Of a stretch of DNA of 35,694 bases, positions 5,953 through 35,564 are shown in pieces. Below the pieces are notes generated by a model. That model had not been told where the DNA came from. It worked only from the letters and a program-made list of their open reading frames with translations, and did not search any database. Positions within the stretch are counted from its first letter, which is position 1, and each line of letters starts with the position of its first letter. Where the stretch lies: positions 1 through 35,694 of IMG/VR virus record IMGVR_UViG_3300048589_001332. One strand, 5' to 3'. The position numbers were made by a program, and so were the translations under genes. This DNA is from a virus.

Positions 5953-5983
5953 AACGCCCCTCAAAATGGGGCGTTGCTTTTTT
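5953..5983 (+). terminator. Terminator after the 5376 gene
   Basis: Stem AACGCCCC/GGGGCGTT with a 7-nt loop and a GCTTTTTT tail. It ends 18 nt before the ATG of the next gene. Confidence 0.75.
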
Positions 5984-6000
5984 ACAAAACAATTAAAACC

Positions 6001-7063: not shown

Positions 7064-7103
7064 TAAAGAACTCAGCAATAACAGCACTTCCGGCTTTTAT
7101 TTC

Positions 7104-7141
7104 TTGTCCTTTCAGCTTTTTTAACTACAATTTACTTTCGC
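7104..7141 (+). promoter_or_regulatory. Phage-type promoter for the packaging operon
   Basis: TTGTCCTTT at 7104-7112 and TACTTTCGC at 7133-7141 in the standard register; the second box has CGC where the others have TGC. The ATG at 7153 follows after 11 nt. Confidence 0.75.
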
Positions 7142-8801: not shown

Positions 8802-9367
8802 GCCGCGAATCAGAATTAACATACCAGGAGCTTGTACGTACCATTGAGGCACGTGAAGAAATGAGCCCTAAACAAATTGAGATACTTGAGCGCTGGAAAT
8901 ATGCTCATAAAACCATGAACGATGACTTCCTGATCGGGATGCCACTTGAAGACAAGATCATGGAAAAATTTGGAGTAAGCAGATCCACTGCGCGCAAAGA
9001 TATCCTGGACAGCAACTCTTATTTTCTTACAGAAGATAAGATTGATAAGGACCTGTGGCGCGGGCGTCTGGCTTTCTGGCAGCTGAAAGGCATTGCACTT
9101 GCCTACAAAAACGACAATATGCGCGATTTTAACAGCGGCATCAAAAACCTGTATCTCATTATGGGGCTCGACAGGAAAGACACAAAACTGGATCCCAAAC
9201 TTTTCCAGCAAAATATATACAACTTCTTTTCAGATCCTCGCAGGGTTGGTATCAAGGCTGTTACTGAGCCCGAGGTACTGGAGCTCATTGATGAAATTGA
9301 AGGCATCTCCCCATCCGAAAGAGAACGTTTAATTCAAGAAGCTGACGGCTATCCCGAAAATGAATGA
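8798..9367 (+). CDS. Putative terminase small subunit
   Basis: 189 residues, directly upstream of and overlapping the large terminase by 8 nt. A helix-turn-helix is seen in MEKFGVSRSTARKDILDS (about residues 52-70); the rest is helical (FNSGIKNLYLIMGLD, TEPEVLELIDEIEGISPSERERL). Small terminase subunits recognise the packaging start site and feed DNA to the ATPase. It starts with an ATGA overlap. Its last residues, YPENE, embed the next gene's start; the gene at 23896 ends the same way. The call rests on position plus HTH. Confidence 0.7.
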   Translation: MSRESELTYQELVRTIEAREEMSPKQIEILERWKYAHKTMNDDFLIGMPLEDKIMEKFGVSRSTARKDILDSNSYFLTEDKIDKDLWRGRLAFWQLKGIALAYKNDNMRDFNSGIKNLYLIMGLDRKDTKLDPKLFQQNIYNFFSDPRRVGIKAVTEPEVLELIDEIEGISPSERERLIQEADGYPENE

Positions 9368-11437: not shown

Positions 11438-11526
11438 TGTAAACCTTGTAAACCATGTAAACCTATGATTATAAATAATTAAAATACAACTAATTACAGG
11501 TTTACAGTCGGTTTACATAGTTTACA
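11438..11526. repeat. TGTAAACC site array in two orientations around an AT-rich core
   Basis: Three direct copies of TGTAAACC at 11438, 11447 and 11456 (9-bp period) are followed by an AT-rich core (11464-11498) and then three inverted copies: GGTTTACA at 11499 and 11510, AGTTTACA at 11519. Six sites converge on the core. This resembles iterons next to an unwinding element, or a multi-site operator. Confidence 0.7.
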
Positions 11527-11538
11527 GTTTGTTTATAT

Positions 11539-11629
11539 GGTGTTCCGCTTCGCTGCACGAATATGGGGCGCGCAGCGCCTTTAATAGGTGTTCCGCTACG
11601 CTCCACAGCACTATGGGGCGCGCAGCGCC
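11539..11629. repeat. 48-bp tandem repeat with GC hairpins
   Basis: The copies at 11539-11579 and 11587-11629 both begin GGTGTTCCGCT and end ATGGGGCGCGCAGCGCC; the middle differs. Each ends in the hairpin GGCGC-GCA-GCGCC. No coding sense. Confidence 0.7.
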
Positions 11630-11695
11630 ATATATCACTTTTTGGGCGGTGTTAATTGCTCACAGGGTAACCAGCGTGGCGTTAGTTCCTCTGTC

Positions 11696-18706: not shown

Positions 18707-18736
18707 TTTAACTCAGAAAATCAACCACTTAATTTT

Positions 18737-18774
18737 TTGTCCTTTTTAAAATTTCGGTTTTGGGTAATATTTGC
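18737..18774 (+). promoter_or_regulatory. Phage-type promoter for the exported protein gene
   Basis: TTGTCCTTT (18737-18745) and TAATATTTGC (18765-18774), standard register. The leader to the ATG at 18818 is 43 nt, the longest of the set. Confidence 0.75.
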
Positions 18775-19321: not shown

Positions 19322-19356
19322 TTTTCTCTGTTTTCATGTTGTGTATTCGGGTAAAA

Positions 19357-19387
19357 ATACTCCGCTTTGCAGCGGGGTATTTTTTTT
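19357..19387 (+). terminator. Terminator whose T-run runs into the next promoter
   Basis: Stem ATACTCCGCT/AGCGGGGTAT (one G-T pair), loop TTGC, then seven T. The last T residues are the first bases of the promoter at 19386. Confidence 0.8.
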
Positions 19388-19423
19388 GTCCTTTTATTTT
19401 TTTACCTGTAAGTGCATTTTTGC
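19386..19423 (+). promoter_or_regulatory. Phage-type promoter for the portal operon
   Basis: TTGTCCTTT (19386-19394) and CATTTTTGC (19415-19423). The ATG follows after exactly 3 nt (TAC), implying a leaderless or nearly leaderless mRNA. Confidence 0.8.
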
Positions 19424-19426
19424 TAC

Positions 19427-19720
19427 ATGAGCAACAAAACAGAAACGATTCATTTGAGAGATGCCCTCAGGTTGATGGACGAAAGCCTGAAACCCGATGG
19501 CACTACTGTTCCTTTCAGCATTTCGTTTTACAGATTCAGCGACTCAAAGCCGGCGCATAATGGCTCTTTGGCCACTTATCGCAATTGTATTAAGGCTGTA
19601 TTGCATCAAAACATGAGTAAAACCATGCAACGCGGAATTAGAGTGCTGGATTCAAACGATATCAAATCTGTACACATCTGGCTCATTAAAGAATTTAACG
19701 GACAAAGAGTTAGATGGTAA
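19427..19720 (+). CDS. Small protein upstream of portal, 97 aa
   Basis: The ATG at 19427 is chosen because it lies 3 nt after the promoter's TTGC; a GTG 15 nt upstream lies inside the promoter. The product (LRDALRLMDESLKPDGTTVP, MQRGIRVLDSNDIKSVHIWL) is a small alpha/beta protein not recognised by family. Its stop shares a base with the portal ATG (TAATG), so they are coupled. Position suggests a head or packaging accessory protein. Confidence 0.65.
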   Translation: MSNKTETIHLRDALRLMDESLKPDGTTVPFSISFYRFSDSKPAHNGSLATYRNCIKAVLHQNMSKTMQRGIRVLDSNDIKSVHIWLIKEFNGQRVRW

Positions 19721-21054
19721 TGAAAACACTTGAATTAAAAGAAGGTGTAGCCGGTGTGCTTCCAAAATCGAAAGGCACCTATAAGATTGAAGGCAATAAT
19801 TCAAATCCGAAGCCTTCCGGCGTTTCTAACACCACTGTTAAAAAACTGAATAAAAGCATCCAGAATTTTGCTGAGGACACCAAAGGAACAAGTGTTAAAG
19901 ACGTTAAGATATCAGTTTGGGGTCGCGACAATCTGTTCCCCCAGCATCTTATGAGCTTATACCAGAATAATATTTTCCCAGGGCTCATGGATTTTAAGGT
20001 GGATATGCTTTACAGCCTGGGGGCTCAGATTTATGAAAAAAAGGTTGTTGGTAATCAGTTGGTTGAAATCCCCGTAATTGATTATGAGATTGAAGACTGG
20101 CTTGAAAGCTGGGATGCAAAGAATTTTATTGCCGATCAGTTTACCGACTTCGTGTGGACAGAAAACCTGTTTACACAAATAGTGGTAAACAAAACCAAGA
20201 TTCAGCCTATTCGCTCTCTTAAGCATGTCAATACAGAAGAATGCCGCCTTAGCATAATGAATAATAAAGGCATTTCGGAGAAAGTTATGATGGGCAACTG
20301 GACTGATAAAAAAGACTATGTTCCGGTTGACAGATGGGATCCGCTTAAGCCCGAAAAGCATGGTGTGTATATGATACACGCGAAAAAGAAAAGTTACGGA
20401 TTCAGGTATTATAACTACCCGGTTTATATTGGGGTAACTTACAAGTGGCTGCCGCTGGCAAATGAAATACCTACCTTCCACCTTTCGCGGCTTCAGAATT
20501 CAATAAATGCGAAGTTTCATATTAAGATACCTGTTTCTTCGCTGCAGGCACTTAAGGAACTGTACAACTGGAATAAGGAGCAAATTGACAAATGGCTGGA
20601 AGATAAGCTCACAGAAATTGACAATATGCTGGCCGGTGCCGAAAATGCCGGGAAAGTTTTTTATACTTTCAAAACAACCGATGCAAACGGCAAGGAGTTG
20701 AATGGCTGGGAGATTATTGAGCTTAAAAACTCAGAAAAGGAAATGAGCGAAGCCAACCTGAGGCTGTTTAACGAAACCAATCAGGCCATTACCAGCGCGG
20801 TACAGGTGCAGCCATCGCTGGCCTGTATACAGCTTGGAGAAAAAATGAGCTCAGGATCTGAAGTACTCAACAGCTACAATCTGCATATTAAAACCCGTAC
20901 CACCATTGCGCGCAACCTGGTGATGGACAACATTAACCGGGCTATAAGATTAAACTGGCCCAAAAAAAGGGTTTATCTTAAGATTGTTGATGCGGTACTG
21001 GTTAAACAGGAAGATAACAAATCGGGGTTACAGGAGCCTTCAAATAGCCAATGA
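19720..21054 (+). CDS. Portal protein
   Basis: 444 residues from the ATG at 19720 (another ATG 6 nt upstream is possible). Portal-type pattern: an N-terminal disordered stretch, then VWGRDNLFPQHLMSLYQNN, FKVDMLYSLGAQIY, a central region with a Trp/Tyr-rich stretch, and the C-terminal helical part with ITSAVQVQPSLACIQLGEKM. The length is at the low end of portal proteins but normal for Bacteroidetes phages. The portal forms the dodecameric vertex ring through which DNA passes. It overlaps the next gene by ATGA. It lies far from TerL, separated by the accessory island. Confident by pattern and context. Confidence 0.8.
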   Translation: MKTLELKEGVAGVLPKSKGTYKIEGNNSNPKPSGVSNTTVKKLNKSIQNFAEDTKGTSVKDVKISVWGRDNLFPQHLMSLYQNNIFPGLMDFKVDMLYSLGAQIYEKKVVGNQLVEIPVIDYEIEDWLESWDAKNFIADQFTDFVWTENLFTQIVVNKTKIQPIRSLKHVNTEECRLSIMNNKGISEKVMMGNWTDKKDYVPVDRWDPLKPEKHGVYMIHAKKKSYGFRYYNYPVYIGVTYKWLPLANEIPTFHLSRLQNSINAKFHIKIPVSSLQALKELYNWNKEQIDKWLEDKLTEIDNMLAGAENAGKVFYTFKTTDANGKELNGWEIIELKNSEKEMSEANLRLFNETNQAITSAVQVQPSLACIQLGEKMSSGSEVLNSYNLHIKTRTTIARNLVMDNINRAIRLNWPKKRVYLKIVDAVLVKQEDNKSGLQEPSNSQ

Positions 21055-22079
21055 TAATAAAAAGTATAGCAGATCTTATCACTCACGTGGGGGGTGTACT
21101 GCAAGGGAAAGATTTTGGCGACATAAAACCATCGGTTGAGTGGGCTGAAGAAGAAATGCTGATTCCGGCCATCGGGCAGGAAATGTATGATTTGCTGGAA
21201 TCCTATCTTGAGGATGGCAGTGGATCGGGTTCGGCTTCTGCTTCCGGATCGGGTTCTGGTTCCGGATCTGCAACATCGTACCAGGATGCGCTTAAACTTG
21301 CGCCCAAATGCGCGCGCGTGGTTGCTCATTTTGCTATGTTTGACTATACTACTATCAGCGATAGTAAAGTAACGGCACAGGGGCTGCAGATTGTTGAGAC
21401 GAACACTCATAAAACTGCTTATGAGTATCAGAAACGCGACCGTAAAAAATATCACGGTGAGAAAGCCGATAAAGCCCTGGACAGCCTGCTGCTATTTCTT
21501 GAGAACAATAAAACAAAATACCCCGAATGGGCGAATAATGCAGCGGTTTACACAGAAACCAGGAAACTGATTATCAATAACACTCAGCAGTTTAATGAGT
21601 GTGTTGATATTGGAGGCTCGCGGCGAACTTACATGACTTTGAGGGGATTTATAAAGGATGTGGAGCAAATGCACGTACTTCCAGCCCTGGGTGTTACAAT
21701 ATACCAGGCGCTGAAGTCGCATATACTTTCTGGCGGCAACTCGGCAAACTACAAACAACTACATGATTTACTGGTACCGGCAGTGGCGAATATGGCCATT
21801 GCCGATGCCTTGCCGTCAATTATCTTCCGTATTGCCGGCGACACCATCACTACAGCGACTTACAATCCTTTCTCTGAAAAGGAAAAAGAGCAGATTACAA
21901 AAACAGTGAACAGCATTATTGCTTCGCGTTTGCAGAAAGGAGCCAACTACCTGAAGCTTGCAGTTGACTTTGTAAAAGCCACTCCTGATCTTTTTGCCAT
22001 TTCGCCTTACGCTGCCACTACCGAAGCGGAAGGTGGTTACAATAACTCGGAAGACAAAAAACATTTTGTTGGATTTTAA
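21051..22079 (+). CDS. Head-tail connector candidate (DUF6712-like) with Gly/Ser/Ala linker
   Basis: 342 residues, directly after the portal. Two halves look homologous: residues about 5-55 (EMLIPAIGQEMYDLLESY) and 190-225 (MHVLPALGVTIYQALKSHIL), each followed by helices of similar pattern. In the first half the loop after the long helix is expanded to a run of about 20 Gly, Ser and Ala residues (residues 56-74); the second half has only a short SGGNSAN there. Similar runs end the capsid protein. The family resembles DUF6712 of Bacteroidetes phages; an adaptor/connector role is inferred from its place after the portal. Confidence 0.65.
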   Translation: MIIKSIADLITHVGGVLQGKDFGDIKPSVEWAEEEMLIPAIGQEMYDLLESYLEDGSGSGSASASGSGSGSGSATSYQDALKLAPKCARVVAHFAMFDYTTISDSKVTAQGLQIVETNTHKTAYEYQKRDRKKYHGEKADKALDSLLLFLENNKTKYPEWANNAAVYTETRKLIINNTQQFNECVDIGGSRRTYMTLRGFIKDVEQMHVLPALGVTIYQALKSHILSGGNSANYKQLHDLLVPAVANMAIADALPSIIFRIAGDTITTATYNPFSEKEKEQITKTVNSIIASRLQKGANYLKLAVDFVKATPDLFAISPYAATTEAEGGYNNSEDKKHFVGF

Positions 22080-22130
22080 AAGAAATCAGACAACACTTCT
22101 CAATCACTCACTCATCAAAACCAGGAAAAA

Positions 22131-22559
22131 ATGCGAGACCTGATTTTAACCACTGTTCCCACTGTTTTTTTAACAGTAATCACTTTTTTTCTTACGCGCC
22201 GTAAATACAAGGCAGAAGTAAAAACTCAAAACGCTCAAGCAGAAACCAGCGAGATAGAGAATACCGAAAAGGCTATTAAAATCTGGCGCGAAATGACTCA
22301 AACTTTAAAGGCTGAGTTTACTGAGCAGATAGATATTTTGAAAAAGGAAAATGAAGCAATCAGGACCGAGCTTCAAAGTGTAAAAAGCCAGCACCAAACC
22401 GTGGTACAGGAAAATCGCGATCTGCGGGAACAAATGCAGTCTCTTGAAAAGGAGCTTAAAGCCTCAAAATGTCAAATTAAAACGCTTACCGATCAAAATA
22501 AAACCCTGATCACTGAACTTAAAAAGTTTAACAAAAATTACGAGGAGCCAAAACCATGA
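22131..22559 (+). CDS. Membrane-anchored coiled-coil protein (inner spanin or holin-type candidate)
   Basis: 142 residues. Residues 5-22 (ILTTVPTVFLTVITFFLT) form one membrane segment followed by RRK; residues 40-135 form a long coiled coil. This is the shape of an inner-membrane spanin subunit or of coiled-coil lysis accessory proteins; the positive charge right after the segment leaves the topology open. It overlaps the amidase gene by ATGA, so it is part of the lysis cassette. Confidence 0.65.
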   Translation: MRDLILTTVPTVFLTVITFFLTRRKYKAEVKTQNAQAETSEIENTEKAIKIWREMTQTLKAEFTEQIDILKKENEAIRTELQSVKSQHQTVVQENRDLREQMQSLEKELKASKCQIKTLTDQNKTLITELKKFNKNYEEPKP

Positions 22560-23107
22560 GACGTTTAGCAATATCAGCCGCACACTCAAACGTACCAGGG
22601 CAGGACATGGGCGCTGCAGGCAATAACCTGATTGAAGGTGTTGAAGCCGTTAAAATCAGAAACAAGGTAAAACAGCGGCTTGAGCAGCTTGGAGTAAAGG
22701 TTTCGGTAGATCCTGACAACTCGGTTACCGGCGCAACTGTACGGCTTTTCAAGCAGTTTTTTAAGGGCAAGGATGTGGTAGTTGACATTCATCTGAATGC
22801 AGCCACAAGTAACAGAGTCACCGGAACTGAGGTAATAATTCCTGACAACTACAGCGATTTTGAAAAAGCGCTTGCCTCCGATCTGAGTAAAGCAATATCT
22901 TCAACCTTAGGCATACATAACCGGGGTGTAAAAATAGAGGCACAAACAGCCAGAAAAAAGCTGCTGTGGATGACCATTCCGGCCGAGAACATTCTGATTG
23001 AATGTTTCTTTATATCCAATCCCTCGGATGTGAATTCCTATCATTTGTATGGCGATTTTATGTGCAATGCCATTGCCGACGTGCTTTATAAATATCTGCA
23101 AAAATGA
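22556..23107 (+). CDS. N-acetylmuramoyl-L-alanine amidase (endolysin)
   Basis: 183 residues covering one Amidase_3 domain. Zinc ligands and catalytic residues can be placed: His10 in ISAAHS, Glu27 in LIEGVEA, His in VVDIHLNAA and the catalytic Glu in ILIECFFISNPSD. It cleaves the amide bond between MurNAc and the stem peptide. No signal peptide, so it needs a holin for release. It is flanked by membrane-anchored proteins on both sides with 4-nt overlaps. Confident. Confidence 0.88.
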   Translation: MRRLAISAAHSNVPGQDMGAAGNNLIEGVEAVKIRNKVKQRLEQLGVKVSVDPDNSVTGATVRLFKQFFKGKDVVVDIHLNAATSNRVTGTEVIIPDNYSDFEKALASDLSKAISSTLGIHNRGVKIEAQTARKKLLWMTIPAENILIECFFISNPSDVNSYHLYGDFMCNAIADVLYKYLQK

Positions 23108-23697
23108 AAACAGACAGGCTTTTAAATTACATAATCATCGGCCTTCTCCTGGCAATGCTATTCCTGCAGAAGGAATGCTCCCGCAGCCCAGTGGAGCCAG
23201 AACCCCGCGTAACACGCACAGAGGTGTGGCATTATGATTCAACCCGGTACATTACACAGGTACCGTTGCCATATCCTGTGAAAGAACTGGAACTGGTACC
23301 GGTAGAAGTTCCGGTGGTGGTTGATTCATTTGCCATTTTTCAGGCATATTTTAAGCGATTTGTTTACCATCGTGTGCTAAAAGATGACAGTACTGCTTTT
23401 ATAAAGCTGATTGACACCGTGAGCCAGAACCGGTTTACGGGTTCATCGCTTGAATTTCTGTTGCGCAGGCCTGTGCAACATATCACTTACAACACTACCA
23501 TTGCCGATCCAACTGCCCGATTTTTTGCAGGCCCCATGGTTGGCGCAACCTTCGATGGTAAACTTGGACTTGGCGCTACGGCTTTGTATGTGAGTAAGCG
23601 AGATAATGCTTACAGCCTTACGGCAGATCCATTTGCGCGAAGAATAGAAGTATCAACGCTCTGGAAAATTCAGTTTCGCAAACACAAACCCCGTTAA
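23104..23697 (+). CDS. Membrane-anchored protein in lysis cassette (spanin-like candidate)
   Basis: 197 residues. An N-terminal segment (residues 7-21, LNYIIIGLLLAMLFL) anchors the protein, followed by QKECSRS, a Pro/Val-rich extended stretch (VPLPYPVKELELVPVEVPVVV) and a C-terminal beta-rich half (FFAGPMVGATFDGKLGLGAT, then IEVSTLWKIQF). The cysteine is not in a good lipobox. The stretch-then-beta design could bridge the periplasm and contact the outer membrane, as a one-protein spanin would. It overlaps the amidase gene by 4 nt. Function is inference. Confidence 0.6.
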   Translation: MKTDRLLNYIIIGLLLAMLFLQKECSRSPVEPEPRVTRTEVWHYDSTRYITQVPLPYPVKELELVPVEVPVVVDSFAIFQAYFKRFVYHRVLKDDSTAFIKLIDTVSQNRFTGSSLEFLLRRPVQHITYNTTIADPTARFFAGPMVGATFDGKLGLGATALYVSKRDNAYSLTADPFARRIEVSTLWKIQFRKHKPR

Positions 23698-23698
23698 T

Positions 23699-23884
23699 AT
23701 GGAACCAATTGAAGAACCTGCCAACACAATTGAAATTCTGATGCCGAAAGGGTATGAATATGCCGAAAAGGATGCTGATAAAAGAAAAGGCTACACCTTT
23801 AAGCGCAAATATACCCTGCAAAGGAACCAGGCCTGCCCCTGCGGATCGGGTAAGAAGTTTAAGAATTGTCATATGGTTGACTAA
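23699..23884 (+). CDS. SEC-C motif small protein
   Basis: 61 residues ending in the SEC-C zinc-binding motif (CPCGSGKKFKNCH). The N-terminal 40 residues are acidic and then basic. SEC-C motifs bind zinc and often contact other proteins, as in SecA. The start follows the previous stop by one base. Its role between lysis and tail genes is unknown. Confidence 0.75.
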   Translation: MEPIEEPANTIEILMPKGYEYAEKDADKRKGYTFKRKYTLQRNQACPCGSGKKFKNCHMVD

Positions 23885-23895
23885 ATATCACACCC

Positions 23896-24816
23896 ATGCA
23901 AGTAGTAGAGTTTGAAGGAAAAGACATCACCTATCCCGGGTCGTGGGATGAAATGACATTAAAGTATCTGAAGCCGCTGGCTCAGCTGCTGTTTATGGGC
24001 TTGTCGCCTGCAGATTTCAAGATTAAACTCATCTTCAAATGGCTTAATCTTGACAAGAGGTTGTTTAATTACAACGACAGAACTTATTTTATTTCAGGCA
24101 TTTACCGGCTTTCTCCAATACTGGCCATTAGCGGTATCAAAAAAAATAAGGTTAAGTTTTTTGACAAATCAGATGCCTGGCTGCTTGCCGAAACCTTAAA
24201 CTTTTTACTTACCGCAGAAGAGCAGCCTGATGGGCAGAAAAAATACAGAAGAAACATTCAGTTGCTTAAACAACTTATACCGGTGATTACGGCCGGCAAA
24301 GAGCGACTCTATGGGCCGGGGGACCGCATGATTAACATAACTGCCGGAGAGTTTGCCAAAGCGGAAACCCGGTACCAGAGTTATTTAAACACTGGTGACG
24401 AGAAATATTTGAATGAATTGATTGCCGTGCTGTATCGCCCGAACAAACGATTCATAAACCTTCGCAAATTTTTTCAGCACTGGGATGGCGAAAACCGGGT
24501 TGATTACCACGATTTTCATTTAGCCAGGGCAAAAGCCATTGGCAAAATTGATCACGTAACCAGGCTCTGTATCTTACTGCATTTCGAGGGATGCCGTAAC
24601 TATGCAGTAAATCAGAATCCTGAGATTTTTGAACCGGACGGATCTGACGAACCAGAAAACAACACCGGATGGGCAGGTATATTTCAGGCCATAAGCGATA
24701 AGCCCACCGAAATTGAGCAAATTGCCCGGCTTAACTTCTGGACACTTCTTTTCGACCTGAAGCAAAAAGCAATTCAAGCCAAAAAACTAGAATCAAAATA
24801 CCCTGAAAATGAATAG
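23896..24816 (+). CDS. Unknown phage protein, 306 aa (tail assembly candidate)
   Basis: Not recognised for certain. A soluble, mostly helical protein (LKYLKPLAQLLFMGLSPADF, RFINLRKFFQHWDGENRVDY). The C-terminus contains a Trp-rich piece (GWAGIFQAISDKPTEIEQIA) with KPTE, often seen in tail assembly chaperones of Bacteroidetes phages. It ends in YPENE with the next start embedded (8-nt overlap). Position between head and tape-measure genes fits a tail assembly chaperone or connector. Confidence 0.55.
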   Translation: MQVVEFEGKDITYPGSWDEMTLKYLKPLAQLLFMGLSPADFKIKLIFKWLNLDKRLFNYNDRTYFISGIYRLSPILAISGIKKNKVKFFDKSDAWLLAETLNFLLTAEEQPDGQKKYRRNIQLLKQLIPVITAGKERLYGPGDRMINITAGEFAKAETRYQSYLNTGDEKYLNELIAVLYRPNKRFINLRKFFQHWDGENRVDYHDFHLARAKAIGKIDHVTRLCILLHFEGCRNYAVNQNPEIFEPDGSDEPENNTGWAGIFQAISDKPTEIEQIARLNFWTLLFDLKQKAIQAKKLESKYPENE

Positions 24817-25300
24817 CTATTTTGAAACACTTGCCAAACAACACAAGCAGGTAGAGCACAGCGAAACCGTGCAGCATTTTTTCAGATCAATTGATCAGTT
24901 CCTGAATGCTGACAGTGACAATCGTGCGAATTACCCGGCTGTGGTAATGGACAATTTGAGCGGACGCATTACCGGAGCCAACTTTGATGCCAAGGTTGAT
25001 ACCATGAGCACGGGTATTATGTTTTTGCGCAAGCTCACAAACATTGATGATGCCGCGCAAATTGATCAGGCTCATGCCGACATGAAAGCCCTGGCATTTG
25101 ATTTTGGCGCACGCATGGAAGCCGATGCCGAGTACTGCGAAAATGAAACCCTTAAGTTTTTGCAGCAGTTTAACGCCGGCACTGTAACATACAAAGAGTA
25201 TGGGCCTGTGTTTGACAACTGCTTTGGGGTGCTTATGAGCTTTCAACTTGGCAATAAGGCCGCCTGGGAGCATAAACCCGAAAACTGGAATATCGAATAA
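24809..25300 (+). CDS. Unknown phage protein, 163 aa (connector or tail candidate)
   Basis: Not recognised. Mainly helical (YFETLAKQHKQVEHSETVQH, QIDQAHADMKALAFDFGARM) with a C-terminal beta-like part (NCFGVLMSFQLGNKAAW). Overlaps the upstream gene by 8 nt. The upstream frame does not continue by a -1 shift into this one, so it is not a classical frameshift chaperone pair. No membrane segment. Confidence 0.65.
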   Translation: MNSYFETLAKQHKQVEHSETVQHFFRSIDQFLNADSDNRANYPAVVMDNLSGRITGANFDAKVDTMSTGIMFLRKLTNIDDAAQIDQAHADMKALAFDFGARMEADAEYCENETLKFLQQFNAGTVTYKEYGPVFDNCFGVLMSFQLGNKAAWEHKPENWNIE

Positions 25301-25348
25301 AAAAATATTGTAAATTGCGGGGGTATTAACCCCTAAACATTTTGCGAT

Positions 25349-25873
25349 ATGAAAACTTTAATCTCATTTTTACTGGTAGTGACATCACATTTTGCTATTT
25401 GTCAAAATGGCAAATATGATATCTCTGAAGTAATTGAAATTGACAGCACATCCAAAACAGAGCTTTACAACAGAGCGATTGAGTGGTTTTCTAAAACTTA
25501 CAAATCTGCAGATAAGGTGATACAGCATGCAGATAAAGAAACAGGTGTTATAATAGGTAAAGCTTTAATGAAGTCCTACGTTAAGGTAATGGGATCGTAT
25601 AACAATGCTGGCTTTGTTTATTATACAATTACTATATCAGTAAAAGACAATAAATACCGGTATGAAATAAACAATGTGTATCATGACAGAGCTTTTTCAA
25701 GTTTGGGTGGCTCTGGCGGAAGTTTAAATAATGAGGTTCCTGCGTGTGGTCATTTTAATATTACAAAAAAGTACTGGGAAACAATAAAGAGCTTTGCAGA
25801 TAAGGATATTGAAAATATTGTCAACAGTTTAAAGACTTCAATGCAATTACCATCGAAAAAAGAGGATTGGTAA
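25349..25873 (+). CDS. Exported DUF4468-type protein (TBP-like fold)
   Basis: 174 residues with a signal peptide (MKTLISFLLVVTSHFAICQ). The mature part follows the DUF4468 pattern of Bacteroidetes: EIDSTSKTELYNRAIEWFSK, SADKVIQHADKETGVIIGKA, then a beta-rich segment with YRYEINNVYHDRAF. These are usually chromosomal envelope proteins of unknown function. The gene is visibly richer in A/T than its neighbours, suggesting separate acquisition. It sits between tail genes and the antirepressor module, so it is probably a lysogeny-expressed cargo gene (moron). A short hairpin GGGG/CCCC precedes the ATG. Confidence 0.78.
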   Translation: MKTLISFLLVVTSHFAICQNGKYDISEVIEIDSTSKTELYNRAIEWFSKTYKSADKVIQHADKETGVIIGKALMKSYVKVMGSYNNAGFVYYTITISVKDNKYRYEINNVYHDRAFSSLGGSGGSLNNEVPACGHFNITKKYWETIKSFADKDIENIVNSLKTSMQLPSKKEDW

Positions 25874-25882
25874 AAAAAACAC

Positions 25883-25912
25883 TTGACTTTCGTACATAAA
25901 TGTGTATCTTTG
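25883..25912 (+). promoter_or_regulatory. Host-like promoter of the antirepressor module
   Basis: TTG (25883), 19 nt, then a perfect -7 box TATCTTTG (25905-25912). Between them lies ACAT-AA-ATGT, a small palindrome that could be an operator. It is the best host-type promoter in the window. Confidence 0.8.
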
Positions 25913-25914
25913 TG

Positions 25915-26070
25915 CCATCATTCAGCTGAACATCTGAATGAAGAGTCCAAATCCGCCAACAATGTTCTTCGATAAAACATTTAACTTAATAGGGGAAACC
26001 CTCATTCATCTTACCGGGAAACCGGTAGCACCCTTGGCGGGGTGTGACTCGGATGGGTGGGGGTTTTTCC
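25915..26070 (+). ncRNA. Structured leader RNA, C4-antisense-like, upstream of antirepressor
   Basis: Between promoter and gene lie several compact helices: TCATTCAG/CTGAATGA (25918-25941); CCGCCAA (25953) with TTGGCGG (26034); AATGTT/AACATT (25961-25981); AGGG-GAAA-CCCT (25991-26002); TACCGG-GAAA-CCGGTA (26012-26027); CACCC/GGGTG (26029-26044), whose loop is the TTGGCG strand, giving a possible pseudoknot. A competing 12-bp helix joins 25999-26010 to 26052-26063, just before TTTTT and the ribosome site. In phages P1/P7 the C4 antisense RNA lies upstream of ant on the same transcript and pairs near it to block expression. Position and structure match this plan; the family match is unverified. 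Confidence 0.6.
26052..26068 (+). terminator. Possible attenuator/antisense target ahead of the antirepressor
   Basis: GATGGGTGGGGG followed by TTTTT; it can pair with CCCTCATTCATC at 25999-26010 (three G-T pairs). It would act as a conditional terminator or as the target of the antisense segment. Confidence 0.45.
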
Positions 26071-26087
26071 ATTAGGAGACAATGTAA

Positions 26088-26657
26088 ATGAAAACAACTG
26101 AAATTACAGTTGCCAATGTCAACCAGGTTGACATCACCATCATCAAAAACGGTGAAAAAAGAGTAGCCGTTCGGCCAATTTGCGATGCACTCGGCATCGA
26201 CTTCTCTGCTCAACTTCAAAGGCTAAAAAGAGATGAAATTCTAAGTTCAACTGTGGTTACCATAACCACGGTTGGAGCCGATAAAAAGGGCCGGGAAATG
26301 GTAACAATCCCTTTTAAATTTGTGTTTGGTTGGTTGTTTACTATTGACACATCTAAAGTAAGGGAAGATGCAAAAGATGCAGTTCTTAATTATAAACTGC
26401 AGTGTTACGATGCACTTTACAATTACTTTACTCGTCACGAGGAGTTTCTTGAGCACAGGCAAAGCCTGATTGATGCCCGCCTGGCCGAATACGATGCCGC
26501 CCGCAGCGATTTCAGGGTAGCCAAAGAAAAGGTAAACGAGGCACGCAAAGCCTTAGACGAGGCTCGCGCCATAACCGAAGCCGAATATTTTGAGAACAAA
26601 CGGCAGATGGTTATTGATTTTCCGGCAGAGCAAGGAAAGGAGGCTGGCAATGAATAA
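26088..26657 (+). CDS. Phage antirepressor (P22_AR_N domain)
   Basis: 189 residues. Residues about 14-115 match the P22 antirepressor N-terminal domain: VAVRPICDALGIDFSAQLQR, LKRDEILSSTVVTI, and VFGWLFTIDTSKVREDAKDA then LQCYDALYNYF. The C-terminal 70 residues form a coiled coil (RLAEYDAARSDFRVAKEKVN). Such proteins inactivate the repressor and trigger induction or immunity changes. The gene has a real Shine-Dalgarno site (AGGAGA, 8 nt before ATG), unlike most genes here. An ATG-TAA lies directly before the start and is ignored. It is led by the structured RNA described above. Confidence 0.87.
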   Translation: MKTTEITVANVNQVDITIIKNGEKRVAVRPICDALGIDFSAQLQRLKRDEILSSTVVTITTVGADKKGREMVTIPFKFVFGWLFTIDTSKVREDAKDAVLNYKLQCYDALYNYFTRHEEFLEHRQSLIDARLAEYDAARSDFRVAKEKVNEARKALDEARAITEAEYFENKRQMVIDFPAEQGKEAGNE

Positions 26658-26958
26658 GAAGTCAAGGCTTATTTTATTAAGCACATCCAGCAAACAGGCG
26701 TGGGATCTTACCGTGCTTGCCGAGGATTACCGCCAGGCATTTGGCAGCAATTGCATAATCGAAAACATTAACCGTATGAATTACGAGCTTGCCTGCGGCT
26801 TGCTTCAGCTGGTGCCACATGCACCCGAGGGCAGCGGCGAAACCATACTCGATATGGCATACGATATAAATATGCTCAGTAAGTTTAAGGATGTAAAAGC
26901 CGATGAGAAGCTTTATGCCGAATTTGCTTCGCATTCTGAAACCGAAACCGTAATTTAG
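26650..26958 (+). CDS. Unknown protein coupled to antirepressor, 102 aa
   Basis: The ATG at 26650 has a strong Shine-Dalgarno AGGAGG 6 nt upstream and overlaps the antirepressor stop by 8 nt; this decides the start against an upstream in-frame codon at 26590. The product (LTVLAEDYRQAFGSNCIIEN, MAYDINMLSKFKDVKADEKL) is small, soluble and not recognised. It is probably a second component of the antirepressor module. A terminator follows directly. Confidence 0.65.
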   Translation: MNKKSRLILLSTSSKQAWDLTVLAEDYRQAFGSNCIIENINRMNYELACGLLQLVPHAPEGSGETILDMAYDINMLSKFKDVKADEKLYAEFASHSETETVI

Positions 26959-26969
26959 CCTCCCCGGCT

Positions 26970-27002
26970 GCCCCTTGCAGCAGTGCAGGGGGCTTTTCTT
27001 TA
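26970..27002 (+). terminator. Terminator ending the antirepressor module
   Basis: A 10-bp stem GCCCCTTGCA/TGCAGGGGGC with one G-T pair and loop GCAG, followed by TTTTCTTT. Confidence 0.85.
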
Positions 27003-27018
27003 TCTAAAACCTGCAAAC

Positions 27019-27198
27019 ATGAGCGAAGATCAATCCCCGGAACAGAAAAAACAAAAGACCGAACAACAGCTTAATGTTGTTGAAAAAGTGATGAGATATG
27101 TGATATTTAACTCGCGTCCTGATGTACATGTACATGATTTGCAAAGCATTTTGTGCGATTTGTATAACTTAAAAGATACGTTGTGCGAAGAACAATAA
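27019..27198 (+). CDS. Unknown small protein, 59 aa
   Basis: The ATG at 27019 has an A-rich leader (CCTGCAAAC); the open frame upstream runs through a terminator. The N-terminal 25 residues are charged and Gln/Lys-rich (SPEQKKQKTEQQ); the rest is helical (NVVEKVMRYVIFNSRPDVHV, LQSILCDLYNLKDTL). Two terminators follow. Not recognised. Confidence 0.55.
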   Translation: MSEDQSPEQKKQKTEQQLNVVEKVMRYVIFNSRPDVHVHDLQSILCDLYNLKDTLCEEQ

Positions 27199-27250
27199 AA
27201 CAGTAAGCTTTTTACTGTTTTTTCCCCGCCCATCAGGCGGGGCTTTTTTT
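27198..27250 (+). terminator. Tandem terminators, the second fused to a promoter
   Basis: First stem AAACAGTAA/TTACTGTTT with a T-run; second stem CCCCGCC-CATCA-GGCGGGG followed by eight T. The last T is the first base of the next promoter's TTGTCCTTT. Confidence 0.85.
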
Positions 27251-27287
27251 TGTCCTTTCGCTTAGATAGTTGCCGTTGCATATTTGC
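27250..27287 (+). promoter_or_regulatory. Phage-type promoter for the tape-measure operon
   Basis: TTGTCCTTT (27250-27258) and CATATTTGC (27279-27287); ATG exactly 3 nt later (GCT). Confidence 0.82.
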
Positions 27288-27290
27288 GCT

Positions 27291-27809
27291 ATGGAACTTA
27301 GCAGCATTCAACGGGCAATTAAAAACAGCGGGGGCCGTGTGGGCAACTTCGACGAAACTGAAATGCTTTTTATAAGCGAAGAGCTTGATCAGCACGGCGA
27401 ATTCCTAAATGATTTATTTGTTGAAAGTATTGAAGAAAAGGGCCTTATTGATACCGAAGAATTGGTTGATAATATTACATATGGGCAAAGTATGATGGGC
27501 AACAGCCCATATCTGTTTTTTAAGTTTCCTATACATGGCCGCTTTATCGAAATCAACTTTCATCGCAAAAAAAACAGCATATCTGATGCTATTGATGCTT
27601 TTGCCTTAGTAAACAGCATCAGGCGCCGGAAAACGGCCAAAAAGAAAAAAAAGGATACGCGCTGGTACACCCGCAATGTTTACGGAAGTTTAAACCGATT
27701 GCTTTCGCGGCTGGCTACCAACTACTCACAAGCTGAGATTGCCAGGCTAAAGGGCATACTTGAACATAGCGGCATATCATCAAAACCCTCAGTTACTCTT
27801 CACCTCTAA
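27291..27809 (+). CDS. Virion-type protein upstream of tape measure, 172 aa
   Basis: The ATG at 27291 is chosen from the promoter position; a TTG 21 nt upstream lies within the promoter. Beta-like centre (SPYLFFKFPIHGRFIEINFH), then a Lys-rich stretch (RRRKTAKKKKKDTRWYTRNV) and a C-terminal helical part (LNRLLSRLATNYSQAEIARL). It is next to the tape measure (11-nt gap), where neck, tail-completion or tail-terminator proteins are found. No family is firmly recognised. Confidence 0.65.
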   Translation: MELSSIQRAIKNSGGRVGNFDETEMLFISEELDQHGEFLNDLFVESIEEKGLIDTEELVDNITYGQSMMGNSPYLFFKFPIHGRFIEINFHRKKNSISDAIDAFALVNSIRRRKTAKKKKKDTRWYTRNVYGSLNRLLSRLATNYSQAEIARLKGILEHSGISSKPSVTLHL

Positions 27810-27820
27810 ATCACTTACAG

Positions 27821-30800
27821 ATGGCAGACCTTGCAATTGACAGGGCGCAACTTGAAATTATCATCAAAAACGATGAATCACGCAAGCGCCTGCGCGAACT
27901 CGAAGAAGGTACTTCTAAACTCGCTAAAGAGCTCAGAACTTTAGAGAAACAAGGCAAAAAAGATACCGAGGCTTACCGCGAAAAAGAAGCAGCCATCAGG
28001 CGCAACCGCGCAGAGATGGACCGGCTCATCAATACCATTGGCCTTACCGGGCTTACCATGAAGGAGCTGAAGAAAAGGCAATCGGAACTCAATCTGATTA
28101 TGGCGCAGATGGACCCCAGAACTCCTGAATACAAAAAACTGGAGGCTCAGCTTGCACAGGTTAGCGGGCGCATAAGGGAACTTAGAGGCGGCGCAAATGA
28201 GGCGGGTGTAAGTTTAAAAGGGATGGCCGATGGGTTTAACCGGTATTTTGGTATGGTTACTACTTTTCTGGCTTCTATTACCGGGCTTGTGCTTGGTTTC
28301 CGAAGCCTTGCCGAAAAGGTTGCACACATGGATGATGTGTACTCTGATGTGATGAAAACCACAAAAAAAACCAGGGATGAGGTGGTTGAACTTAACGAGG
28401 AGTTTAAACAATGGGATACACGCACCGCCAGAGAGCAGTTGAATTTACTTGCCCGGGATGCCGGGAAGCTGGGCAGGGAATCAAGAAAGGATATTCTTGA
28501 TTTTGTGGAAGCTGGGAATCAGATAAATGTTGCACTTGGTGAAGATTTGGGCGATGACGCAATTAAAAACATCGGCAAAATGGTTGGCGTTTACCAGGAC
28601 GCCACTCAACAACTTCAGAACATTGGCCTGAAAGAACAAATGCTGGCTGTTGGAAGTGCTATTAATGAGCTTGGATCTTCCAGTACTGCAAGTGAACCCT
28701 ATCTGGTAAGCTTTGCCGGGAGATTGGGAGGTATTTCAAAACAGGCAAAAATCAGCATTGCTGATATTCTGGGATATGCCTCGGCTCTTGATCAGGATAT
28801 GCAGGCCGTTGAAATGTCGGCAACTGCTTTTCAGAATTTCATTATGAAATTAACGGCAGATCCTGCAAAGTTTGCCCGAATTGCCGGCCTTGAAGTTAAA
28901 TCTTTCTCAAATCTGCTGAAGACAGATGCCAACGCTGCAATAAAACAAGTTCTCACCTCAATGAATGAGCGCGGTGGATTTCAGGAGCTCATTCCAATAT
29001 TTGAGGAAATGGGTCTTGAAGGTGCCAGGGCTGTGGGTGTGTTATCGGCGATGGCTGGGAGCATTGAAAAAATTGATGAGGCACAGAAAATATCAAACCA
29101 GGCAATGGTTGATGGCACATCTATTACTGCTGAGTACAACATAAAAAACAACAACCTGCAGGCAGGTTTAGAAAAAGCCCGTAAAGCCTTTTTGGAAAAA
29201 GCGCTGGTACTTGGCGAAAAATTAACACCAGCGCTTACAAGAAGCACCAATGGCTTTGCATATATAATCAAGATACTTACAGAGCTTCCGAGGTTTATCA
29301 GAGAAAATCAGATACCTCTTATTTTGCTTGCCGGCGCATTCCTGGCATTGCAGGCTGCAAAAATTAAAGTAATTGCAGCTTCGGCACTTGAACATATTAT
29401 GCTGCAAAAAGGCATCGGATTGAAAATAAAAGATGCCATTGTACTTAAAGCCTTACTTGTGCAGGAGCAATACAGATTGGCTATGGTTGGTAAGACCACC
29501 ATTGCACAAAAAGCAGCAGCCATCGCCACAGCTACTTGGAGATCAGCACTACTTGCGCTTGGTGGTCCTTTGGGATTGGCTGTTATGGGAGTTACAGGTT
29601 TAATTGCAGCAATAAAGCTATATGATCAGCGAAATTCTGAATCGCTTAGGCTTGAGGCTGTAAAACAACAGCGTTTAAACAGTATTAACGAAATCAATAA
29701 GCAGCTGAATATTACCTATAATGCTACAAGTAACATTATTCGCGATATCAATTCGCTTAATTTTGAACAGATTCAGAATCTTTCCGATTTAACTGCAGCT
29801 ACTATTAAGCAGGCTGAAGCGGATTTGCTGGCAGCAAAAATTAAACAGCAAATAACCCAGGAAGAAAATACCCGGGTAGGTATATGGGATAGGATTAAAA
29901 ACCAGTTTCTTTCATTTAACAATACCTGGGCTGCCACCATCAGAAATAATGAAACAGCAAAAGAACGAGGCAAAGAGGCCGCCGCTCAGTTTAATGATGA
30001 GATATCGGCACTTGAGCAAAATATCAGCGATCTTAAAACACAGCATCAGGAAATGACCAACATCCTTACTGCTGAAGCCAAAGCCGATAAAATTGCAGCT
30101 ACAACCATTTCTCAATTCGAGGAAAAAGCCCGGTTGCTTTCCATCGCCTTAAGATCAGTAAACAAAGATTCCGAAGATTATAACCGGATTAATGCAAAGC
30201 TTACTGAGGTTAACAAGGAGTTAAATAAGGCCAACACCAAAATACTTGATGACAATGCAAAACTGATAACTGCTTACCAGGAGCTATCTAATCTTGCCGG
30301 GCAATACAAGGATCATTTAACTGACCTTGTAATGCAGGGAGACCTTACTGAGGCAATGAAGGTAGGACAGTTATTAAGCTCACTTCAGGCAGCTCAGAAG
30401 TTTATTGATGATATTGTTGCCGCCGGAGGTAACCTTGATGTGGTTATTGATAAGGTAAAAACCGGCATTATAGATAAAGGCCAGGAACAAAGTATTTTTT
30501 CTTTTGACGGTAAAGGGAATAAAATTCTGAGTGATGACTGGGTAAACCAGCTTTTTGATGAATACGAAGCAACGGTTGATCAGCTTGTAAATCCTGAGAA
30601 TGCCTCAGATATGCAAAAGGTGCAATTGCCAATGTTTGATAAGGAATTCTTCCTTAATCAAACAGAGGTGCTCAGCAATGCTGCTTTTAATATCTGGAAA
30701 AACAAACAGGATCAGCAATATGAATATGAGCTCAATCGCCTGAATCGAGCCAGGGAAGCAGAGCTTGCGAATAAAAATCTAACTGAGGCGCAAAAGGATG

Positions 30801-31447
30801 CGATTAATGATAAATATCGCAAAAGAGAAGCAAAACTCAAGGCTGAGGCATTCAGAAAACAAAAAGCTGCCGATATATTGCAGGCAATAATTAACGGTGC
30901 TTTGGCTATTACCAAAACTTTTGCAGCTTACGGTTTTACTCCGGCCGGATGGGCAGCTGCTATTGGGCAGGGAATTGCCACAGGGGCACAGGTAGCCACT
31001 ATTGCATCTACAAAAGTTCCTCAATACTCAAAAGGTAAATACCAGGTAACTGGTGCTGATGACAACCGCACATATCATGCAAGTTTTATAGGTACTCCAA
31101 AAACCGGCATTATTGCAAGGCCGAGCCTTATTGCAGAAAACGGGGGAGAGCTTATTATTGATGCTCCTACTACCAGCAAAATGATGGCCAACGCGCCCGG
31201 GCTGGTAAGGGCAATTTACCGCATGGCGGGTAAGGTTCCGCAGCGGGCAGATGGCAGTTATCCTGCTGATATGTATCCGGACGGCAGCAATCAGGGTGGA
31301 ATGATTATGATTCCGCGCGAATATCTTTCCGTTTTTTCAAATCTTGAAAATACACTCAGAAAAGGTGTTAATGCAAAACTTTCGCTTTTCGATCTTAAAG
31401 AATTTGAAGGCAACGAAAGCGATATTGAAAATGCTTCCGGCTTCTGA
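27821..31447 (+). CDS. Tail tape measure protein
   Basis: 1208 residues, the longest gene, with the TP901-type tape-measure core (about residues 150-450: RLGGISKQAKISIADILGYA, GAINELGSSS-like stretch, MSATAFQNFIMKLT, GLEGARAVGVLSAMAG). N-terminal 100 residues are coiled coil (LRELEEGTSKLAKELRTLEK). Hydrophobic segments lie near residues 145-165, 500-520, 580-600 and 1025-1070. A second coiled-coil stretch lies around residues 960-1020. The length suggests a long tail, so a siphovirus-like or myovirus-like virion. It determines tail length and helps DNA entry. Confident. Confidence 0.92.
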   Translation: MADLAIDRAQLEIIIKNDESRKRLRELEEGTSKLAKELRTLEKQGKKDTEAYREKEAAIRRNRAEMDRLINTIGLTGLTMKELKKRQSELNLIMAQMDPRTPEYKKLEAQLAQVSGRIRELRGGANEAGVSLKGMADGFNRYFGMVTTFLASITGLVLGFRSLAEKVAHMDDVYSDVMKTTKKTRDEVVELNEEFKQWDTRTAREQLNLLARDAGKLGRESRKDILDFVEAGNQINVALGEDLGDDAIKNIGKMVGVYQDATQQLQNIGLKEQMLAVGSAINELGSSSTASEPYLVSFAGRLGGISKQAKISIADILGYASALDQDMQAVEMSATAFQNFIMKLTADPAKFARIAGLEVKSFSNLLKTDANAAIKQVLTSMNERGGFQELIPIFEEMGLEGARAVGVLSAMAGSIEKIDEAQKISNQAMVDGTSITAEYNIKNNNLQAGLEKARKAFLEKALVLGEKLTPALTRSTNGFAYIIKILTELPRFIRENQIPLILLAGAFLALQAAKIKVIAASALEHIMLQKGIGLKIKDAIVLKALLVQEQYRLAMVGKTTIAQKAAAIATATWRSALLALGGPLGLAVMGVTGLIAAIKLYDQRNSESLRLEAVKQQRLNSINEINKQLNITYNATSNIIRDINSLNFEQIQNLSDLTAATIKQAEADLLAAKIKQQITQEENTRVGIWDRIKNQFLSFNNTWAATIRNNETAKERGKEAAAQFNDEISALEQNISDLKTQHQEMTNILTAEAKADKIAATTISQFEEKARLLSIALRSVNKDSEDYNRINAKLTEVNKELNKANTKILDDNAKLITAYQELSNLAGQYKDHLTDLVMQGDLTEAMKVGQLLSSLQAAQKFIDDIVAAGGNLDVVIDKVKTGIIDKGQEQSIFSFDGKGNKILSDDWVNQLFDEYEATVDQLVNPENASDMQKVQLPMFDKEFFLNQTEVLSNAAFNIWKNKQDQQYEYELNRLNRAREAELANKNLTEAQKDAINDKYRKREAKLKAEAFRKQKAADILQAIINGALAITKTFAAYGFTPAGWAAAIGQGIATGAQVATIASTKVPQYSKGKYQVTGADDNRTYHASFIGTPKTGIIARPSLIAENGGELIIDAPTTSKMMANAPGLVRAIYRMAGKVPQRADGSYPADMYPDGSNQGGMIMIPREYLSVFSNLENTLRKGVNAKLSLFDLKEFEGNESDIENASGF

Positions 31448-31449
31448 TT

Positions 31450-31487
31450 TTGTCCTTTTGCCGGCATAAAAACCAAATTATTATTGC
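31450..31487 (+). promoter_or_regulatory. Phage-type promoter for the distal tail operon
   Basis: TTGTCCTTT (31450-31458) and TATTATTGC (31479-31487); ATG exactly 3 nt later (AGC). The box begins 3 nt after the tape-measure stop codon, with no terminator between. Confidence 0.82.
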
Positions 31488-31490
31488 AGC

Positions 31491-32678
31491 ATGATCACTG
31501 TAACAAAAAAATCACCGGTAGTAGCATTGTGCGATAATCCAATGCTTTTTGAGTTTACCACCGATTTACCATCGGGTACCGAAGATATGTTTATCCTGGT
31601 GCAGCCATGGTTTTCATCTGATAATTCTGTGGCGGGTGAAGAAAAGTTGTTTCCGCCCCTTCCCGGATCGGCAGATGTGCTGCTGAATGAGTACCTGCGT
31701 ACCGGACTCAATCAGCTGAAGCAGTTTGTTTTCCCGGAACAGGGAAACTCTCCCTGGTTATCGCGCAACCTTATAAGGGAATATAAGCTCCGTATACAGG
31801 AGTGTTATATGGACGATGGTGATCCTGTGGTAGTAACAACCTGGCTCGAAGACAGGTATGTGGTACGAGGCAAGATCCCGCGCTGGATAAGTGCTTATTT
31901 TTATTCGCGCTGGACCAGTTACTGGGATTGGGTTGTTAGCCAGAAGGCTTTTCTTACCTTCTCGCCAAAAACGCTTTACACCCGCCCTGAGCAAATTCAG
32001 AAGCTCTATTTTATGGTTTACTGGGCAAATCAGGCAGGCGAAAAGCTTACACTGAAGCTCAATATCAGGTTTACTGATGGAACTACAGCTGATTATACAC
32101 CAGCACAGGAAACTGCAGAAATTTCGCGTTACGAGATTTATGAATTTCAGGTAGGTTACAGTGTGCTTGGCCTGGCCAATTGGGCTGCAACTAATCATCC
32201 CGGAAAGGAAATAGCAAGTTACCGGGTAACTGCAATGAGCGGCAGTACTGCTGTGAGCGAAACAAGGACTTACATACTCGATCATGCTGTTGATGCCGGA
32301 ATACAAATCATTTTTGCAAACAGCGCTGGAGGTTACGATACTTTGCTGGCTTATGGCAAAAATGAGCTGCAATCGGAGTATGAGTTTGAGAATGCAGAAC
32401 AACAGAGCCCAGGAGTTTCAAACCTGCCCGAAAAAGTGCAGCATTATTCAGGCAACAAAATCGTCAGAACCTGCCGAACCGGTTACATTTCTGCTGAAAT
32501 GGCACAGTACATGCCCGAGCTTTTTGAGAGCAAAGAGCGTTACGAGGTAAGCGGATCGGCTCTGGTACCGATTGTTTTACTTAACGCTAAAGTAGTAACA
32601 GCAAAAGACAATGAAAATCTTTTTTATGCCGAGTTTGAGTATGAATATGCCTTGAACCAAAAAGTGGAGGTAGGCTGA
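31491..32678 (+). CDS. Distal tail/baseplate-type protein, 395 aa
   Basis: First gene after the tape measure, where distal tail (Dit) proteins lie. The N-terminal 130 residues are beta-rich (MLFEFTTDLPSGTEDMFILV, YKLRIQECYMDDGDPVVVTT); the middle part is beta with aromatic residues (WISAYFYSRWTSYWDWVVSQ), then LTLKLNIRFTDGTTADYTPA; the C-terminal 100 residues contain NLPEKVQHYSGNKIVRTCRT. No known family firmly matched. Leaderless start supports the ATG chosen. Confidence 0.65.
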   Translation: MITVTKKSPVVALCDNPMLFEFTTDLPSGTEDMFILVQPWFSSDNSVAGEEKLFPPLPGSADVLLNEYLRTGLNQLKQFVFPEQGNSPWLSRNLIREYKLRIQECYMDDGDPVVVTTWLEDRYVVRGKIPRWISAYFYSRWTSYWDWVVSQKAFLTFSPKTLYTRPEQIQKLYFMVYWANQAGEKLTLKLNIRFTDGTTADYTPAQETAEISRYEIYEFQVGYSVLGLANWAATNHPGKEIASYRVTAMSGSTAVSETRTYILDHAVDAGIQIIFANSAGGYDTLLAYGKNELQSEYEFENAEQQSPGVSNLPEKVQHYSGNKIVRTCRTGYISAEMAQYMPELFESKERYEVSGSALVPIVLLNAKVVTAKDNENLFYAEFEYEYALNQKVEVG

Positions 32679-35513: not shown

Positions 35514-35526
35514 TTGCTTTTAAATT

Positions 35527-35564
35527 TTGTCCTTTCTGTTTTTTGATTCTGATATTATACTTGC
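35527..35564 (+). promoter_or_regulatory. Phage-type promoter for the last, truncated gene
   Basis: TTGTCCTTT (35527-35535) and TATACTTGC (35556-35564). A leader of 18 nt, largely A, precedes the ATG at 35583. Confidence 0.8.

Follow-up and report, generated by a model that had tools for sequence, protein, structure and literature searches.

Three genes in a 35.7-kb virus record (IMG/VR record IMGVR_UViG_3300048589_001332, positions 1 to 35,694; this whole stretch is referred to below as the window) begin with an ATG placed exactly 3 nt after the TTGC of a promoter −7 box, and the question this raises is whether their mRNAs carry any leader at all. The TTGC motifs lie at 19420, 27284, and 31484 and the ATG codons at 19427, 27291, and 31491, as a first-pass annotation had noted when it predicted leaderless transcripts for these genes. 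Leaderless mRNAs at genes with this 3-nt gap (the distance from the −7 box to the ATG) are the best reading of the locus, a probable one that is well supported by sequence evidence. The elements concerned are as follows, the promoter boxes having been called by motif and by position weight matrix (PWM).

19383–19394, + strand: late-promoter upstream box TTTTTGTCCTTT (−44 to −33)
19415–19423, + strand: −7 box CATTTTTGC
19427–19720, + strand: predicted leaderless gene, 97 aa, of a family near the portal gene; A19427 is the predicted +1
27247–27258, + strand: late-promoter upstream box TTTTTGTCCTTT
27279–27287, + strand: −7 box CATATTTGC
27291–27809, + strand: predicted leaderless gene, 172 aa, preceding the tape-measure gene
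31447–31458, + strand: late-promoter upstream box ATTTTGTCCTTT, its start coinciding with the tape-measure stop codon
31479–31487, + strand: −7 box TATTATTGC
31491–32678, + strand: predicted leaderless gene, 395 aa

The three sites belong to a larger promoter set that the first-pass annotation left undescribed, although all four of the sites it named are members. The upstream motif TGTCCTTT occurs eight times in the window against 1.6 expected, a number reached in none of 100 shuffles, and seven of the eight copies are on the + strand, each exactly 33 nt before T(T/C)GC and each preceding a gene (2900, 7153, 18818, 19427, 27291, 31491, and 35583). A PWM scan of the window added an eighth promoter before gene 1762. 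The formula is (T)TGTCCTTT-N20-TAnnTTTGC with identical spacing in all eight copies, although the −7 boxes at 19415 and 27279 begin with CA rather than TA and the box at 31479 has ATTG for TTTG. The bare −7 motif TANNTTTGC is at chance level in the window (8 found, 11.6 expected), and the signal is therefore carried by the upstream box and the fixed spacing. The gaps of the eight promoters are 3, 3, 3, 4, 11, 18, 33, and 43 nt. Gene 1762 had been put forward as nearly the same case; its 4-nt gap stands, but the TTGC box does not, TACCTTTAC occupying its place. The remaining members are listed here.

1717–1757, + strand: weaker promoter copy TTATTCTCCTTT-N20-TACCTTTAC, 4 nt before ATG 1762 (PWM score 18.2)
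2826–2866, + strand: promoter (PWM) of leadered gene 2900 (head maturation protease), gap 33
7101–7141, + strand: promoter (PWM) of gene 7153, gap 11
18734–18774, + strand: promoter (PWM) of gene 18818, gap 43
35524–35564, + strand: promoter (PWM) of gene 35583, gap 18; the gene runs off the window

The same promoter with the same rigid spacer is present in many other Bacteroidota phages. A scan of viral contigs with TTTGTCCTTT-N20-TANNTTTGC gave 83 stretches representing 71 distinct sites, of which 52 have an open reading frame (ORF) start within 60 nt, 11 of these at gap 3; spacers of 21–24 nt pooled gave 62 distinct sites, only two of which have an ORF beginning inside that distance, and no gap is 7 or less. 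In the window and 20 phage records picked by the motif or by homology to the 27291 protein, the PWM gave 77 hits at the exact spacing against 61 at 16 other spacings combined, and 70 of the 77 have an ORF start within 80 nt. The 49 exact motif hits lie on a single strand within each of 20/20 records, and the motif precedes several virion-gene operons in one orientation, the records having been chosen by the motif in both cases; two weak PWM hits are on the opposite strand, neither with an ORF. The 27291 protein has relatives in L006 and L007 (48–49% identity) whose genes retain both promoter and 3-nt gap; the relative in L008 has a gap of 11, and in L009 there is no box at the corresponding gene but three elsewhere, one of them at gap 3. 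Eight whole bacterial genomes (2.4–7.9 Mb) gave one to three sites apiece; a scan of bacterial-genome contigs gave at least 121 distinct sites, chance hits included, at least 61 of them with an ORF start and at least five at gap 3.

What a 3-nt gap implies depends on where transcription starts. Published maps place the sigma-A box TAnnTTTG of Flavobacterium psychrophilum at −12 to −5, and those for F. johnsoniae put the G of TAnnTTTG at −5 with the start 4 or 5 nt further on (PMC9723704, PMC6847099). With that G at −5, a 3-nt gap after TTTGC puts the A of the ATG at +1. The gap distribution has a sharp spike at this position: 30 of 160 distinct sites in the union set are at gap 3 (19/70 in the PWM set), with none at gaps 0–1, two at gap 2, five at gap 4, eight at gaps 5–8 (one of them at gap 5), five at gaps 9–13 (six at 8–13), and a broad hump at 14–30. 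No start codon precedes the predicted +1 by more than one base, and few leaders measure about 5–10 nt. The usual bacterial initiator is YR, and the gap-3 sites match it: their start codon falls on the predicted +1, a purine, and the −1 base is a pyrimidine. The base before the ATG is a pyrimidine in 30/30 gap-3 sites compared to 72 of 115 leadered sites (Fisher 8e-6, a value that is only indicative because the sites are related); the equivalent promoter position holds a pyrimidine in 64 of the 115.

A scan of the viral collection, for which the prediction was set beforehand, gave 71 stretches (72 sites) of promoter-NNY-ATG, one of NNR-ATG, and three with a 6-nt gap. The NNY sites reduce to 59 distinct ones, 58 of which open an ORF of at least 50 codons or one running off the contig, and 45 of the 59 come from loci outside the earlier site sets. 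The 71:1 and 71:3 contrasts, and recurrence of the spacing in at least four unrelated protein families, support the suggestion that the 3-nt spacing is under selection. The most frequent gap-3 gene is a ~95-aa gene near the portal, in whose family 15/22 sites are at gap 3 (with one more at gap 2), compared to 7/18 for the 27291 family, 4/14 for the 31491 family, and 3/5 for a 76-aa family; first genes of at least 750 aa are leadered in 10/10 cases. The comparison of spacing in related phages, which had been proposed as a check, likewise places the gap-3 spike far above chance. Leaderless transcripts remain a prediction from sequence, drawing on the Flavobacterium start-site maps, the −1 pyrimidine, the hard lower edge of the gaps, and conservation of gap 3 in several gene families.

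In the proposed arrangement a T tract followed by TGTCCTTT occupies roughly −44 to −33 and is separated by an invariant 20-nt spacer from the Bacteroidota −7 element, TAnnTTTGC, at −12 to −4. Host RNA polymerase with sigma-A would read the −7 box, and a phage factor reading TGTCCTTT at −40 to −33 would make the set late. At a subset of genes transcription would begin on the A of the AUG, with +1 placed from the Flavobacterium maps, and yield a leaderless mRNA on which translation presumably initiates by direct binding of the ribosome to the 5′ AUG; the remaining late genes of the set would carry leaders, mostly of about 10–40 nt.

Several considerations weigh against this interpretation or limit it. 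The +1 is carried over to these phages from flavobacterial maps. The three window genes start with ATG and this was the sole start codon searched in the wider site sets, while the PWM and related-phage sets take the first ORF-opening ATG, which favours near ATGs somewhat. The sites are evolutionarily related, such that the counts are not independent events, and 35 of the 59 distinct NNY sites come from one protein family. The promoter does not require an ATG at +1, as the majority of sites are leadered. Finally, 31491 has no upstream terminator (−4.0 kcal/mol) and is not insulated.

The last point bears on the alternative that survives best, although it is unlikely: that the genes are translated mainly from longer transcripts initiated at upstream promoters, with the leaderless start a minor contributor. 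Because no terminator precedes 31491 and its promoter begins at the upstream stop codon, a longer transcript may carry this gene as well. The other two genes are differently placed: each is preceded by a strong terminator with a T tract that continues into the promoter box.

19353–19384, + strand: intrinsic terminator directly upstream of the 19383 promoter; 14 pairs with a T tail, −17.2 kcal/mol
27224–27242, + strand: intrinsic terminator directly upstream of the 27247 promoter; −14.8 kcal/mol

Among the 21 records (the window and the 20 phage records), upstream folding passes the 5% cut set by random stretches at 14/19 gap-3 sites and 14/43 leadered sites. In the NNY set, where the cut was a fixed one and the stretch a shorter one of 30 nt, only 11/59 sites pass, so that support for insulation by terminators is partial and suggestive only.

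Somewhat less favoured is the possibility that transcription starts a few bases away from the A to give leaders of 1–4 nt, the 3-nt gap being a minimal 5′ untranslated region (UTR) in a compact genome. The start sites of F. johnsoniae, 4 or 5 nt beyond its −7 element, would allow this, and gaps of 4–8 nt do occur (13/160). However, compactness predicts a smooth pile-up of short gaps and not a single exact position, whereas the counts fall from 30 at gap 3 to five at gap 4 and one at gap 5, the −1 base is always a pyrimidine at gap 3, and the 71 gap-3 pyrimidine stretches compare with three at gap 6 with any base.

It is more doubtful still, and indeed very improbable, that the wrong AUG has been chosen and that translation begins further downstream on transcripts with ordinary leaders, even though the start codons in the window are predicted only. 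In many members of the ~95-aa family the AUG stands directly before a conserved block (M-x-V-Y-E-A-I), and M1 is aligned in 23/23 rows of the family alignment. In-frame alternatives in the window (GTG at 19412 and TTG at 27270) precede the predicted +1. The ATG at gap-3 sites is a start codon and not an initiator motif: A predominates at +1 to +3 of leadered sites, where T makes up 23% at +2 and G 4% at +3. Gene calls by depositors agree with gap 3 at all four gap-3 sites found in eight named phage records.

Cellulophaga phage Ingeline_1, 188: gap 3, annotated start coincides
Porphyromonas phage019b, 19746: gap 3, annotated start coincides
Porphyromonas phage019b, 28496: gap 3, annotated start coincides; same place and gap as the 27291 gene, annotated ‘neck protein’
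Porphyromonas phage026a, 19884: gap 3, annotated start coincides

At other PWM sites with an ORF in these records the annotated start agrees in BT-TP2 (25866), phage019b (35196), and phage026a (32401), while the first-ATG choice differs from the annotation at BT-TP2 18022 (annotated 18034) and Ingeline_1 33461 (annotated 33506). Four of the eight records contributed nothing of use: the single site in 6H lacks an ORF, and there are no sites in Leef_1, laban6-1, and Mea-Yong924-1.

That three of eight promoters share a spacing by accident is hardly credible, for although the numbers within the window are small and the −7 motif alone is not enriched, the same gap-3 spike is present in other contigs and the collection scans disfavour chance.

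A class of host genes with the same spacing is also evident. Across 61 Bacteroidota genomes, sampled from the phylum to which a Bacteroides belongs, 475 matches to TANNTTTGC-NNY-ATG were counted against 213 for a reversed-pattern control, compared to 358 against 256 for NNR-ATG, 203 against 195 for a 6-nt gap with a pyrimidine, and 329 against 239 for a 19-nt gap with a pyrimidine. The NNY-ATG enrichment indicates that hosts share a predicted leaderless class at the same spacing. Two of the genomes (G069 and G073) have 32 and 41 matches to TAnnTTTGC-NNY-ATG against one and four in the control, and some Bacteroidota lineages may have leaderless genes in far greater numbers. Published figures put ~3.7% of 5′ UTRs in Bacteroides thetaiotaomicron below 10 nt (PMC7366714), 5.5% of F. 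psychrophilum transcripts as leaderless, and 87% of those of F. johnsoniae with leaders of more than 10 nt (PMC9723704, PMC6847099). A 2011 survey placed leaderless genes in one of 37 Bacteroidetes/Chlorobi genomes, recognising only Pribnow-like boxes (PMC3160421). The phage sites have in common with host leaderless mRNAs the −7-to-AUG spacing, the −1 pyrimidine, and an AUG that would lie at the 5′ end or close to it, but in the phages the share of late promoters is larger (19/70 at the exact position) and is tied to gene families.

The promoter itself resembles Bacteroidota sigma-A (ABfr) promoters (−7 TAnnTTTG, −33 TTTG) in its −7 box, with TAnnTTTG at −12 to −5, and in the predicted distance to +1. 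It differs in having TGTCCTTT at −40 to −33 and a rigid 20-nt spacer as its upstream element; TTTG at about −33 is absent from the phage set, with G at only 7% at −32, although the position of TGTCCTTT was set by the search pattern. No clear −33 motif is reported for F. johnsoniae promoters (PMC9723704, PMC6847099). The TGTCCTTT box is unlike the known host −33 element, which suggests a phage-specific late activator. Activator-dependent middle or late promoters are familiar from phages T4 (MotA), Mu (C), and P2 (Ogr), which similarly have a phage box upstream of a host-type −10 or −7 element at several operons in one orientation, although box, position, and hosts differ from the set here. A leaderless phage mRNA is likewise familiar in lambda cI transcribed from PRM; that is a single repressor gene under sigma-70, whereas the set here consists of virion-gene operons under one promoter type. 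Among the matches listed in the open-licence literature, none described this phage promoter, and none reported leaderless mRNAs from phages of Bacteroidota; the late-promoter set and its family-tied leaderless class appear to be new with respect to the literature searched.

Host promoters in L131, L142, L148, and L161 (Flavobacterium), L121, and L212 have a palindrome, AGGACATTTGTCCT, in the place of the phage box and at the same distance to TAnnTTTGC, with gaps all of 19–30 nt. The palindrome resembles a site for a dimeric activator, with its centre near −41.5, and these promoters look like a class apart from the phage set. All leadered, they are still counted among the genome sites of the 131-site and 160-site sets.

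A candidate for the factor reading TGTCCTTT is encoded ahead of the head protease gene.

1762–2268, + strand: 168-aa protein gp1762; candidate late regulator

The family lies ahead of the head protease gene in many Bacteroidota phages. Homologs of gp1762 are found in 11 of the 21 records and precede the head protease gene in every case where that gene was found too, and one family member is annotated as a ‘transcriptional regulator’ in Bacteroides phage BT-TP2, by annotation only. The protein has no Pfam or PHROG match; its AlphaFold model is confident (mean pLDDT 92), and with this model a PDB fold search gave nothing at E 0.001 or better and a BFVD search gave one uncharacterised protein, of Polaribacter phage Leef_1. 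Among records found by gp1762 homology the promoter is present in 11 of 17 (22 sites against two for the reversed pattern), some records being near-copies. Against a role as activator, Leef_1 has the fold relative without the motif, and ten motif-bearing records, some of them fragments, have no detected homolog.

Other genes of the window include head protease, portal, and tape-measure genes matching PHROG families, a terminase gene at 9360 (by match to annotated phage terminases), and a putative integrase gene at 179, labelled from shared family membership. The three predicted leaderless proteins have no PHROG or Pfam name, a direct search for relatives of the 31491 protein found none, and an Rfam scan of the window gave no RNA family at gathering score. 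At 25340–25351 a further ATG stands 3 nt after TTTTGC (gene 25349, 174 aa), with ACATTTTG replacing TAnnTTTG and no TGTCCTTT; gene 25349 is possibly leaderless from another promoter, or the spacing is due to chance. Two features were noted by eye: a pair of adjacent near-identical ~84-nt stretches at about 6036–6208 within gene 5974–7011, and repeated G+C-rich palindromic stretches at 11520–11640, past the terminase gene where genes are sparse.

A wider view, offered only tentatively, is that temperate Bacteroidota phages of a broad lineage possess a late-transcription code of their own together with two translation modes into which late genes are sorted. It is a joint claim, and doubtful as a whole, that particular small head-tail genes would be leaderless and large or abundant products leadered, and that the reader of TGTCCTTT would be a phage factor, possibly of the gp1762 family. 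If this view were true, direct ribosome binding to the 5′ AUG would set dose or timing. To our knowledge Bacteroidota lack Shine-Dalgarno signals, and how their ribosomes pick start codons is an open question on which this promoter set bears: with the AUG mostly at the exact +1 or about 10 or more nt downstream, it provides a natural series for two initiation modes in inducible phages. The promoter spacing aids start-codon calling in such phage genomes, and the set constitutes a strong candidate late promoter for Bacteroidota phages, accompanied by a candidate regulator family.

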